This document shows positions 49,142-52,322 of a stretch of 64,000 bases of DNA, piece after piece (the first letter of the stretch is position 1; every line of letters begins with the position of its first letter). This DNA comes from Kribbella pratensis (lineage in GTDB: Bacteria; Actinomycetota; Actinomycetes; Propionibacteriales; Kribbellaceae). The stretch spans positions 430,358 through 494,357 of the forward strand of contig NZ_SODP01000005.1 in the NCBI RefSeq assembly GCF_004365355.1, given 5' to 3'. The position numbers and the translations under genes are program-made. The notes beneath the pieces are model-generated. The model was given only the letters and a program-made list of their open reading frames with translations. It searched no databases and was not told the DNA's origin.

Positions 49142-49660
49142 GTGGCAGTCAAGATCCGTTTGAAGCGCATCGGCAAGAAGCGCACCCCGCACTACCGCAT
49201 CGTCGTGATGGACGCCCGCGCCAAGCGGGACGGCCGGGCGATCGAGGAGATCGGCATCTACAACCCGAAGACCGAGCCCTCGTTCATCCGGGTCGAGTCG
49301 GAGCGGGCGCAGTACTGGCTGGGCGTCGGCGCGCAGCCGAGCGAGGCCGTCGAGGCGATCTTCAAGGCCTCCGGCGACTGGCAGAAGTTCAAGGGCGAGC
49401 CGGCTCCGGCGCCGCTCCGCGTCGCCGAGCCGAAGCGGGACAAGCAGGAGATCTTCAACGAGGCGCTGGCCGAGGCCCACGGCTCGCTGAAGACCGAGGC
49501 CGTCACCGCCAAGAAGTCCGCGGCGAAGAAGTCGGCCCCGAAGGCCGACGACACCGCGAAGGACGACGCGGCCGAGGCCCCGGCGGCCAAGGCCGACGAG
49601 GCTCCCAAGGCTGACGAGACGCCCGCCGCCGAGGCGCCGGCCGAGACCACCGAGGCCTGA
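49142..49660 (+). CDS. rpsP: 30S ribosomal protein S16, extended C terminus
   Basis: S16 with its core in residues 1-85 ([39 protein letters not shown]) and a long Ala/Lys/Asp/Glu-rich tail of about 75 residues ([14 protein letters not shown], then EAPAAKADE). Bacterial S16 is usually about 80-100 residues; a low-complexity extension is common in actinobacteria. GTG 49142 follows GGGAG. It leads the khpA-rimM-trmD-rplS group and is directly followed by khpA. Confidence 0.95.
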
Positions 49661-49662
49661 CG

Positions 49663-49917
49663 ATGATGGAGACCGAGGCGCTCGAGCACCTGGTCCGAGG
49701 CATCGTGGACAACCCCGACGACGTCAGTGTCCGGTCCCGGAACCTGCGCCGCGGACGCACCCTCGAGGTGCACGTCCACCCCGACGACATCGGCAAGGTG
49801 ATCGGCCGCAACGGCCGCACCGCCACCGCGATCCGCACCGTCGTCGGCGCCCTCAGCTCGGAGTCCTCGCTCCGCATCGACTTCGTCGACGAGTTCAACC
49901 GGCGCCCGCGCCGCTGA
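49663..49917 (+). CDS. khpA: KH-domain RNA-binding protein KhpA
   Basis: An 84-residue KH-domain protein. LEVHVHPDDIGKVIGRNGRTATAIRTVV carries the GxxG loop (GRNG) that grips single-stranded RNA. KhpA is conserved between rpsP and rimM in many Gram-positives. It acts as an RNA chaperone, alone or with KhpB. The start is at the first of two consecutive ATG codons, two bases after rpsP. Confidence 0.92.
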   Translation: MMETEALEHLVRGIVDNPDDVSVRSRNLRRGRTLEVHVHPDDIGKVIGRNGRTATAIRTVVGALSSESSLRIDFVDEFNRRPRR

Positions 49918-49973: not shown

Positions 49974-50006
49974 TCTTCCCTCAGTTGATGTCTTCCCTCA
50001 GTTGAT
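49974..50006 (+). repeat. Tandem direct repeat before rimM
   Basis: TCTTCCCTCAGTTGAT occurs at 49974-49989 and again at 49991-50006, a 17-base period. It lies in the 3' flank of the terminator and 16 bases before the rimM GTG. It may be a chance short duplication or part of rimM control. Confidence 0.7.
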
Positions 50007-50022
50007 CTCCGGAGAAGGGTTT

Positions 50023-50571
50023 GTGCAGGTGTTGGTGACAGTCGGGCGGATCGGCCGGGCGCATGGGATCAAGGGTGAGGTCGGGGTCGACGTACGGACC
50101 GACGAGCCGGACCGGCGGTTCGCCGACGGCGCGGTGCTGGTGACGGATGCCAAGGTGTCCCGCACGCTGACGGTGGCATCGAGCCGCTGGCACAGCGGGC
50201 GGCTGCTGGTGAAGTTCGCCGAGGTGCCGGACCGGACTGCCGCCGAGCTGCTGCGCAACCTGTCCGTGCAGGCCGAGATCGACGAGGACGAGCGCCCGGA
50301 GGACCCCGACGAGTACTACGACCGCGAGCTGATCGGCCTCGCCGTACGCACCACAGACGGCGCCGACGTCGGTGAAGTGATCGACGTGGTCCACCTTCCG
50401 TCGCAGGACCTCCTGGAGATCCGCCGCCCGGCCGGCAACGCCGTCCTGGTCCCGCTGGTCGAGGAGCTGGTCCCGGAGCTCAACCTGGAGAAGCAGTACG
50501 TCGTCGTGGCCGACCGGCCCGGTCTGCTGGACCCGGACGGTGCCGAGGTGGTCCCGACCGATGAGGCTTGA
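50023..50571 (+). CDS. rimM: Ribosome maturation factor RimM
   Basis: RimM, 182 residues, helps assemble the head of the 30S subunit and binds S19. The N-terminal RimM domain ([25 protein letters not shown]) and C-terminal PRC-barrel ([42 protein letters not shown]) are complete. GTG 50023 with GGAGAAGGG in front is the start; an ATG 21 bases upstream is not supported. It overlaps trmD by 11 bases. Confidence 0.94.
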
Positions 50572-51757
50572 CGTCGTCACGATCTTCCCGGAGTACCTGG
50601 CCGCCTTGGACGTCTCCCTGGTCGGCAAGGCGGCGAAAAGCGGTCTCCTGGACGTTCACCTGCACGACCTGCGCGAGTGGACCCACGACCGCCACAGGAC
50701 CGTCGACGACACCCCGTACGGCGGGGGAGCGGGCATGGTGATGAAGCCGGAGCCCTGGGGTCTCGCGCTCGACGCGATCGCTCCAGTGGACGGTCCGGCG
50801 CAGCCGCGGCTGATCGTGCCGACTCCGGCGGGGCGCCCGTTCACCCAGGAGCTCGCGTACGAGCTGGCCGCCGAGCCGTGGCTGGCCTTCGCCTGCGGCC
50901 GGTACGAAGGCATCGACGCGCGCGTTGCGTCGTACGCCGGTGAGCGGATGCGCGTGGACGAGGTGTCCATCGGCGACTACGTGCTGAACGGCGGCGAGGT
51001 CGCAGTACTCGTCATGGTCGAGGCAGTCGCCCGCCTGCTCCCGGGCGTCATTGGCAACCCGGAGTCCCTGGCGGAGGAGTCCCACTCGGGCGACGGCCTG
51101 CTGGAGTACCCGGTGTACACGAAGCCGCCGAGCTGGCGCGGCTACGACGTACCTGAGGTTCTACTGTCCGGGAACCACGGGCTGATCGCCGACTGGCACC
51201 ACGAAGAGTCAGTACGCCGTACTGCGGAGCGCCGGCCGGACCTGCTGGCGGCGTGGGGCGACGTACTGGCGGCCAAGGACGACTCCGACGCGGTCCGCAT
51301 CCTCCCGGCCACCGCAGCCGACGCGGGCGAGATCCACGTGTTGCAACTGGCCGGCTTCCTCTCCGAGGCCCGCTTGTACGACGACTACACGATCCCGCCC
51401 CTCACCGAGGAGGTCGCCGACACAGCCGCCCGTCTGGAGCGCTCCGTCGCCCTGAAGGCGGTCGCCGGTGCCCGCATCGTCGGCTCCGTCCAGCTGACCG
51501 TCGACGGGCCAGTGGGGCAGATAGAGCGGCTCGTCGTCGCCCCCGACTGGCAGGGGCGTGGTCTTGGTGCCCGTCTGCTCCGCGCGGCCGAACAGTTGGC
51601 TCCGTCCGACGTGACGTCGTACGTCCTGAATACCGGTGCCAAGAGCGAGCGCAACCTCGCCCTGTACCGCAAGGCGGGCTACCGGGAGAGCAGCCGCCGG
51701 GCCCAGACGCCGAAGGTGGATCTGGTCTACCTGACCAAACGCCGTCGCCGGAAGTGA
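50561..51757 (+). CDS. trmD: tRNA (guanine37-N1)-methyltransferase TrmD fused to a GNAT acetyltransferase domain
   Basis: A 398-residue protein. Residues 1-236 are an ordinary TrmD, the trefoil-knot enzyme that puts N1-methyl on G37 of t[55 protein letters not shown] and [15 protein letters not shown]. TrmD normally ends about here (230-275 residues). Residues about 243-398 form a GNAT domain ([23 protein letters not shown], acetyl-CoA loop [37 protein letters not shown]). The frame has no stop or plausible internal start between them. Confidence 0.92.
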
Positions 51758-51864: not shown

Positions 51865-51941
51865 TGCCACAGGGGGTGACCACCGACCGGCAGCCTTCTG
51901 ATGACTTCATCACCACCGACATTCGTGGGTGACCTGTGGCA
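51865..51941 (+). ncRNA. Structured leader of rplS with long-range stem
   Basis: TGCCACAGG (51865-51873) and CCTGTGGCA (51933-51941) are perfect reverse complements enclosing about 59 bases, in the leader of rplS. The gap of 205 bases between trmD and rplS also holds a -10-like CAAGAT near 51835. Structured leaders before ribosomal protein genes often bind the encoded protein; such feedback is a guess here. Confidence 0.4.
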
Positions 51942-51962
51942 CGCGCGAGGAAGAGACACCTG

Positions 51963-52322
51963 ATGAGCAACGTCCTGAATGAGCTCGACAACGCGAGCAA
52001 GCGTGACGACATCCCCGCTTTCCGGCCCGGCGACACCGTCAACGTGCACGTCAAGGTCGTCGAGGGCAACCGGTCCCGCGTCCAGGTGTTCAAGGGTGTC
52101 GTGATCCGGCGCCAGGGTGGCGGCCTGCAGGAGACCTTCACGGTCCGCAAGGTCAGCTTCGGCGTCGGTGTCGAGCGGACCTTCCCGCTGCACACCCCGA
52201 TCGTCGAGAAGATCGAGGTCGTGACCCGCGGCGACGTCCGCCGCGCCAAGCTGTACTACCTGCGCGAGCTGCGCGGTAAGGCGGCGAAGATCAAGGAGAA
52301 GCGCGAGATCCCGGCCTCCTGA
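51963..52322 (+). CDS. rplS: 50S ribosomal protein L19
   Basis: L19, 119 residues, lies at the 30S-50S interface. [62 protein letters not shown] and [25 protein letters not shown] are typical. ATG 51963 follows GAGGAAGAG; the frame extends further upstream but with no family sequence. It is followed 25 bases on by the first lepB. Confidence 0.95.

Follow-up and report, generated by a model that had tools for sequence, protein, structure and literature searches.

The locus analysed here raises the question of whether a tRNA methyltransferase and an acetyltransferase truly form one protein and, if so, what the second activity is for. It lies within a window of 64,000 nucleotides (the whole stretch of DNA that was analysed) from the soil bacterium Kribbella pratensis. 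TrmD, an essential enzyme of the SPOUT class and a drug target, methylates tRNA beside the anticodon. An initial annotation had claimed that its gene runs without a stop into a full GNAT domain, that there is no internal start, and that the joining would link m1G37 formation to acetylation. The genes and domains concerned are as follows.

49142..49660, + strand: rpsP, ribosomal protein bS16 (PF00886), in the same gene cluster as trmD::GNAT
49663..49917, + strand: KhpA-type KH-domain RNA-binding protein (PF13083)
50002..50571, + strand: rimM, 30S maturation factor (PF01782, PF24986), directly upstream of trmD::GNAT
50561..51757, + strand: trmD::GNAT fusion gene, 398 aa in a single frame, ATG at 50561, stop TGA at 51755-51757
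50561..51247, + strand: TrmD domain (tRNA guanosine-37 N1-methyltransferase), residues 1-229 (NF000648 300.7 bits, PF01746 210.3 bits)
51248..51292, + strand: linker, residues 230-244, of low pLDDT and variable in Kribbella
51293..51754, + strand: GNAT acetyltransferase domain, residues 245-398 (PF00583 49.2 bits, predicted fold)
51551..51568, + strand: acetyl-CoA pyrophosphate-binding loop QGRGLG, residues 331-336, from the sequence
51737..51754, + strand: basic C-terminal tail KRRRRK, residues 393-398, from the sequence
51936..52322, + strand: rplS, ribosomal protein bL19 (PF01245), directly downstream of trmD::GNAT

The gene order at the window locus, rpsP-KH-rimM-trmD-rplS, contains the order rpsP-rimM-trmD-rplS that is typical of TrmD. 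The fusion gene is present as a single copy in the K. pratensis genome, and its ATG falls within the 3' end of the rimM frame, giving an overlap of 11 bases. All 398 codons are uninterrupted and both NF000648 and PF00583 score above their cut-offs, which bears out the claim that TrmD continues into a full GNAT domain. A frameshift or stop between residues 236 and 245, the event named at the outset as fatal to this claim, was not found: in all 38 Kribbella genomes the match spans residues 1-396 or more and internal stops are absent. The statement that no internal start exists was slightly too strong, as GTG and TTG codons are present at residues 260-261 of the window gene. Since these codons fall within the first helix of the GNAT, and since start codons are not conserved between residues 215 and 275 (at any one position in at most 7 of 30 Kribbella sequences), the fusion nevertheless appears to be the only sensible product.

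The initial annotation had pointed to other Propionibacteriales as the place to look for the fusion, and there it was indeed found. The full fusion occurs in 97 of 196 genomes sampled from the order of the window, which is inferred to be Propionibacteriales (family and order names were inferred from named relatives). It is present in 38/38 genomes of family f1, which holds the window genus Kribbella, in 51/75 of family f3 (genus g6, 45/46; g12, 5/5; g17, 1/2; g3, 0/20; g15, 0/2), in 8/75 of family f2, together with one decayed copy, and in 0/8 of family f4. In a class-wide sample it was recovered from 30 of 394 genomes, confined to f1, f2, f3 and a further family, f36, where 46 of 59 genomes carry it (matches extending to residue 365 or further were counted, two of which start inside TrmD). 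Named genera with the fusion include Nocardioides, Marmoricola, Terrabacter, Phycicoccus and Auraticoccus, and the Terrabacter and Phycicoccus GNAT domains cluster with those of f36. The 17 best-matching named loci are all from Kribbella, with 62-89% identity over the GNAT part. A fused fragment on a small contig of a family f55 genome (G608, 6% contamination) may be a contaminant. That a missed stop or frameshift had spuriously fused two separate genes is hard to square with this recurrence in 38/38 Kribbella, 97/196 order and 46/59 f36 genomes, and we consider its probability negligible; an artefact, a frameshift and an internal start are ruled out by the conservation of the frame in relatives and by the start-codon scan of the 30 Kribbella sequences.

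We found no description of a TrmD::GNAT fusion in the open-access literature, which was the scope of the search; it may be listed as an architecture in subscription journals or domain-architecture databases. Passages of PMC1282579 likewise make no mention of it.

The N-terminal half exceeds the cut-offs of both curated TrmD models (300.7 bits against 220 for NF000648 and 236.4 bits against 195 for TIGR00088), and its family membership suggests that it is an ordinary TrmD making m1G37. At the position of the catalytic Asp169 of E. coli TrmD, the window protein has a glutamate, in the motif EESH. This substitution is not an oddity linked to the fusion, because EESH is shared by fused and unfused TrmDs alike (202 of 210 sequences). 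Relatives that lack the GNAT domain have an ordinary TrmD, and in two fused genes in which the GNAT has decayed (genomes G562 and G074) the TrmD half is still recognised. TrmD therefore does not need the GNAT domain, which is an optional add-on to it.

For the C-terminal half, PF00583 matches residues 294-374 with 49.2 bits (cut-off 20.7), and PF13508 and PF13673 are likewise above cut-off. The motif QGRGLG conforms to the GNAT loop consensus (Q/R)xxGx(G/A); the acetyl-CoA loop that had been reported at residues 331-336 looks usable and is conserved across the fused domains. A full-length structural model built from 29 aligned sequences has a mean pLDDT of 78.8 and a pTM of 0.45. In it, the GNAT from residue 251 onwards scores 87-96 in blocks of ten residues and residues 230-242 fall below 50; only 25% of linker residues 230-245 are invariant among the 30 Kribbella sequences. 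The GNAT half modelled alone (residues 234-398) reaches a pLDDT of 93.6 and a pTM of 0.87. The C-terminal half thus appears to be a GNAT N-acetyltransferase that folds on its own at the end of a flexible linker and, to judge from its fold and conserved residues, would be catalytically competent.

Which amine such an enzyme would acetylate was approached through its nearest structures. The top solved fold for the GNAT model is Ta0374 with acetyl-CoA (3f0a; Z 21.0, 1.7 Å over 148 residues), followed by RimI (2cnm; Z 20.7, 1.6 Å over 142 residues) and archaeal Ard1 (Z 20.7 and 20.1), and the N-terminal acetyltransferase 5isv gives Z 20.0. PaiA ranks first in Foldseek. The presence of RimI and of Ard1, NatA and NatC among the closest folds, together with a gene cluster encoding bS16, RimM and bL19, raises the prospect that the domain acetylates ribosomal proteins in the manner of RimI, at their N-termini or at lysines. 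We regard this as improbable: the protein scores 34.2 bits against the RimI model TIGR01575, well short of the 86.4 bits needed for membership, which is thereby rejected; many GNATs tie in Z, and the substrate is not indicated by the fold searches; and no ribosomal context was noticed around the stand-alone relatives examined, apart from an rpsA-like gene near one Nonomuraea locus (L153). No general base could be assigned in the window GNAT at the position of the RimI glutamate. Membership of the AAC(6') aminoglycoside 6'-N-acetyltransferases (best model 23.2 bits, cut-off 325) and of PaiA, the spermidine/spermine acetyltransferase (NF053587 12.6 bits, cut-off 250), was also rejected for the window protein.

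We next consider whether the domain is maintained. The GNAT half evolves under purifying selection: in 435 pairwise comparisons within Kribbella its median dN/dS is 0.222, against 0.077 for the TrmD half. Among 126 distinct fused domains, E257, R305, P328, D329 and G336 are kept in every one, G334 in 125, Y369 in 122 and N365 in 117. All ten signature residues tested are kept in 112 of the 126, and at least one is missing in the other 14. GNAT function has thus been lost in places among fused genes; the domain of G562 is below the profile threshold and just under the Pfam cut-offs, and that of G074 lacks its last part. Decay may be under-counted, since most loci were selected as best matches. 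Taken as a whole, the trmD::GNAT fusion is real, spans many genera and is kept by selection.

The same residues bear on whether the domain serves TrmD. Among 70 relatives that have no TrmD part (stand-alone proteins, together with a few fused to other enzymes), E257, R305, P328 and D329 are kept in all 70. Because relatives without TrmD keep them too, the conserved residues are traits of the family and were not made for TrmD. It is conceivable that acetyl-CoA binding to the GNAT alters TrmD activity, so that m1G37 tracks carbon status, and both the high conservation of the CoA loop, which is among the most conserved parts, and the attachment of the GNAT by a flexible linker behind the C-terminal domain of TrmD would suit such a sensor. 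A pure sensor, however, would not need E257 and R305, which lie outside the loop and are as conserved as it is, and the same residues recur in proteins without TrmD; we find this explanation very unlikely.

Relatives of the window-type GNAT (type 1) were then followed beyond trmD. Within the order sample, a type-1 GNAT is found in 110 genomes and sits at trmD in 97 of these. Of the 99 order genomes without the full fusion, 13 hold a relative at E<=1e-25, which gives no clear complementarity and does not support the idea that stand-alone copies replace an absent fusion. Second copies were also seen alongside the fusion: 11 of 38 Kribbella genomes carry one, and in genome G093 (L301, C1:1089409-1089747) a degenerate second type-1 GNAT lies directly behind trmD::GNAT, apparently as a tandem duplicate.

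The stand-alone genes lie in varied surroundings. In 7 of 8 loci examined by eye in families f47, f49, f51 and f54, the GNAT is at or near purU, and several of these loci also hold glyA and folD, genes of one-carbon folate metabolism (loci L241-L246 and L257; a Pfam check covered a single example each of purU, glyA and folD). In Nonomuraea (L150, L153, L155) it lies directly upstream of coaE, encoding dephospho-CoA kinase (Pfam on L150), and at one locus it is beside a zwf-like gene. The remaining loci share no common pathway, and a single context-based function for the stand-alone relatives is not supported. Other fusions exist as well. A Kribbella gene (L095:3896-5098, - strand) joins an NADPH-dependent FMN reductase to a close relative of the window GNAT, as identified with Pfam, and four further loci read by eye (L096-L098 and L255) have the same architecture, which looks like a reduce-then-acetylate pair. 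A MarR-like gene is adjacent to the FMN reductase-GNAT gene in Kribbella, in opposite orientation (by eye). In Geodermatophilus, the gene at L178:2701-3480 (+ strand) joins a type II chorismate mutase to a member of this GNAT subfamily.

The ease with which this subfamily joins other proteins points to a general-purpose amine acetyltransferase. The stand-alone contexts (purU/glyA, coaE or a zwf-like gene) and the varied fusion partners, FMN reductase and chorismate mutase among them, are the main argument for supposing that an active small-molecule acetyltransferase was fused to TrmD by chance and kept for its expression in an essential, highly expressed cluster, tethering to tRNA being meaningless; the repeated absence or decay of the domain points the same way. 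We treat this as possible but doubtful, in view of three observations on the way in which GNATs are attached to TrmD.

First, a different GNAT has been joined to the same end of TrmD. Three TrmDs initially taken as unfused have C-terminal tails of 179-221 residues, and Pfam identifies TrmD plus GNAT in each. Such type-2 fusions are present in 18 distinct genomes (f49, 12; f51, 4; f56, 2), at loci L265, L269, L274, L302, L321-L329, L346, L347, L349, L350 and L354. The curated model nearest to the type-2 GNAT is PaiA, with 38-56 bits in three examples (best 56.2), below the cut-off of 250. The type-1 and type-2 profiles align as distant GNATs with 22% identity, and the type-1 profile has no match at 1e-10 in loci L302-L356.

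Second, unfused trmD genes have neither type of GNAT beside them, as judged from 67 matches (62 distinct) with 0.9-3 kb of downstream sequence. In the sample examined, a GNAT of type 1 or 2 at trmD is fused, and not a mere neighbour. The presence of two GNAT subfamilies at the same TrmD end, with none merely adjacent to the 62 distinct unfused trmD genes, speaks against chance fusion.

Third, the fused domains are shifted towards basic charge in both types. Net charge was summed over the stretch that starts at the first conserved helix and runs to the C-terminus. Its median is +3 in fused type-1 GNATs (n=126) against 0 in those not joined to TrmD (n=70), and +1 in fused type-2 GNATs (n=18, range -7 to +5) against -5 in those without TrmD (n=32), kinship not being separated in either comparison. 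For type 1 the comparison group matters: 15 relatives from named genomes have a median of +1, as do five FMN-reductase fusions, and the strongly acidic set consists of 15 relatives taken from other families in the class, with a median of -5. Much of the type-1 charge lies in the last 14 residues, without which the fused groups stand at -1 to +2; over the last 12 residues the median is +3 in the 126 fused domains against +1.5 in the 70 relatives. The tree offers just two or three independent pairs for the charge shift, too few for a statistical test. A basic shift of this kind would be consistent with life beside RNA.

The history of the joining was addressed with separate trees of the two halves. 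With 96 sequences, the tree of TrmD halves requires 13 state changes (three type-2 fusions were scored as unfused), and an AU test rejects the grouping of all fused TrmD halves in one clade (p 0.000155, lnL 210 lower). For the GNAT halves (93 rows), one clade of fused domains is compatible with the data (AU p 0.545). In a quick GNAT tree, the Kribbella and three f2 domains fall outside a group of 50 rows (support 99), which comprises the remaining fused domains and some unfused ones. These patterns would fit one GNAT lineage that was joined once or several times and then lost or passed around, and they would fit separate joinings too. On the TrmD tree, two f2 genomes (L068, L070) have fused TrmDs that sit next to one from f36 (support 97), a sign that the fused gene may have been transferred as a whole.

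Our preferred reading, to which we assign a probability of about one half, is that trmD::GNAT encodes a genuine bifunctional protein, in which an ordinary TrmD is combined with a GNAT that would be active on an amine substrate of its own and is perhaps held near RNA. The conserved residues shared with relatives lacking TrmD suggest that this substrate would be the one those relatives use. Fusion would set the GNAT at a fixed dose with the ribosome-maturation gene cluster. In the weakest step of the scheme, TrmD and the basic tail may bring the GNAT near tRNA or other RNA, as the charge and the joining of two kinds of GNAT at the same point would indicate.

The proposed link between acetylation and m1G37 receives hints from the two subfamilies at the same TrmD end, from their absence as mere neighbours of the 62 distinct unfused genes and from the basic shift. 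Tight coupling is disfavoured by the unfused relatives, by decay and by the presence of the same residues without TrmD, so that a direct link is hypothetical. In its strongest form, this idea would hold that an acetyltransferase was joined to TrmD at least twice in Actinobacteria because the acetyl group goes to something on or beside tRNA (an aminoacyl-tRNA amine, the tRNA itself or a ribosome-assembly protein), in a non-toxic reaction coupled to m1G37 with the basic tail as an RNA anchor; we think this unlikely. These data do not discriminate between the acceptors envisaged initially, namely an antibiotic-like molecule, tRNA and a ribosomal protein. If true, a widespread, selected and repeatedly made TrmD-acetyltransferase fusion would mean that something in TrmD's reach gets acetylated. 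Even with the GNAT as a passenger, the case would plainly illustrate how one essential enzyme acquired the same kind of domain from two different sources.

Comparison with known systems places the bifunctional protein as follows. Residues 1-229 are like TrmD throughout, with approximately 60% identity to Mycobacterium TrmD structures, but the window protein has 169 extra residues that are absent from the 50 solved TrmD chains compared (202-249 residues long). The GNAT shares its fold with RimI and with archaeal and eukaryal N-terminal acetyltransferases at Z of approximately 20, but falls below the curated RimI cut-off, as described above. By sequence profile, the best match in the PDB is 1y9k, deposited as an IAA acetyltransferase (51.8 bits), and a TG..S motif before the last helix is common to both; the match is limited to profile positions 55-145, and 1y9k is a separate protein whereas the window GNAT is fused. 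We know of no assigned substrate for 1y9k. The toxins AtaT and TacT, GNATs reported to acetylate aminoacyl-tRNA (PMC7595197, PMC9177977), offer a known case of a GNAT using an amine carried on tRNA. They belong, however, to toxin-antitoxin pairs, whereas the window GNAT is fused to trmD, and no small antitoxin gene was found adjacent to it, its direct neighbours being rimM and rplS. The type-2 fusions of f49, f51 and f56 have the same architecture as the window protein, TrmD followed by a C-terminal GNAT, but draw that GNAT from another subfamily, the window protein scoring only 12.6 bits against the PaiA model.
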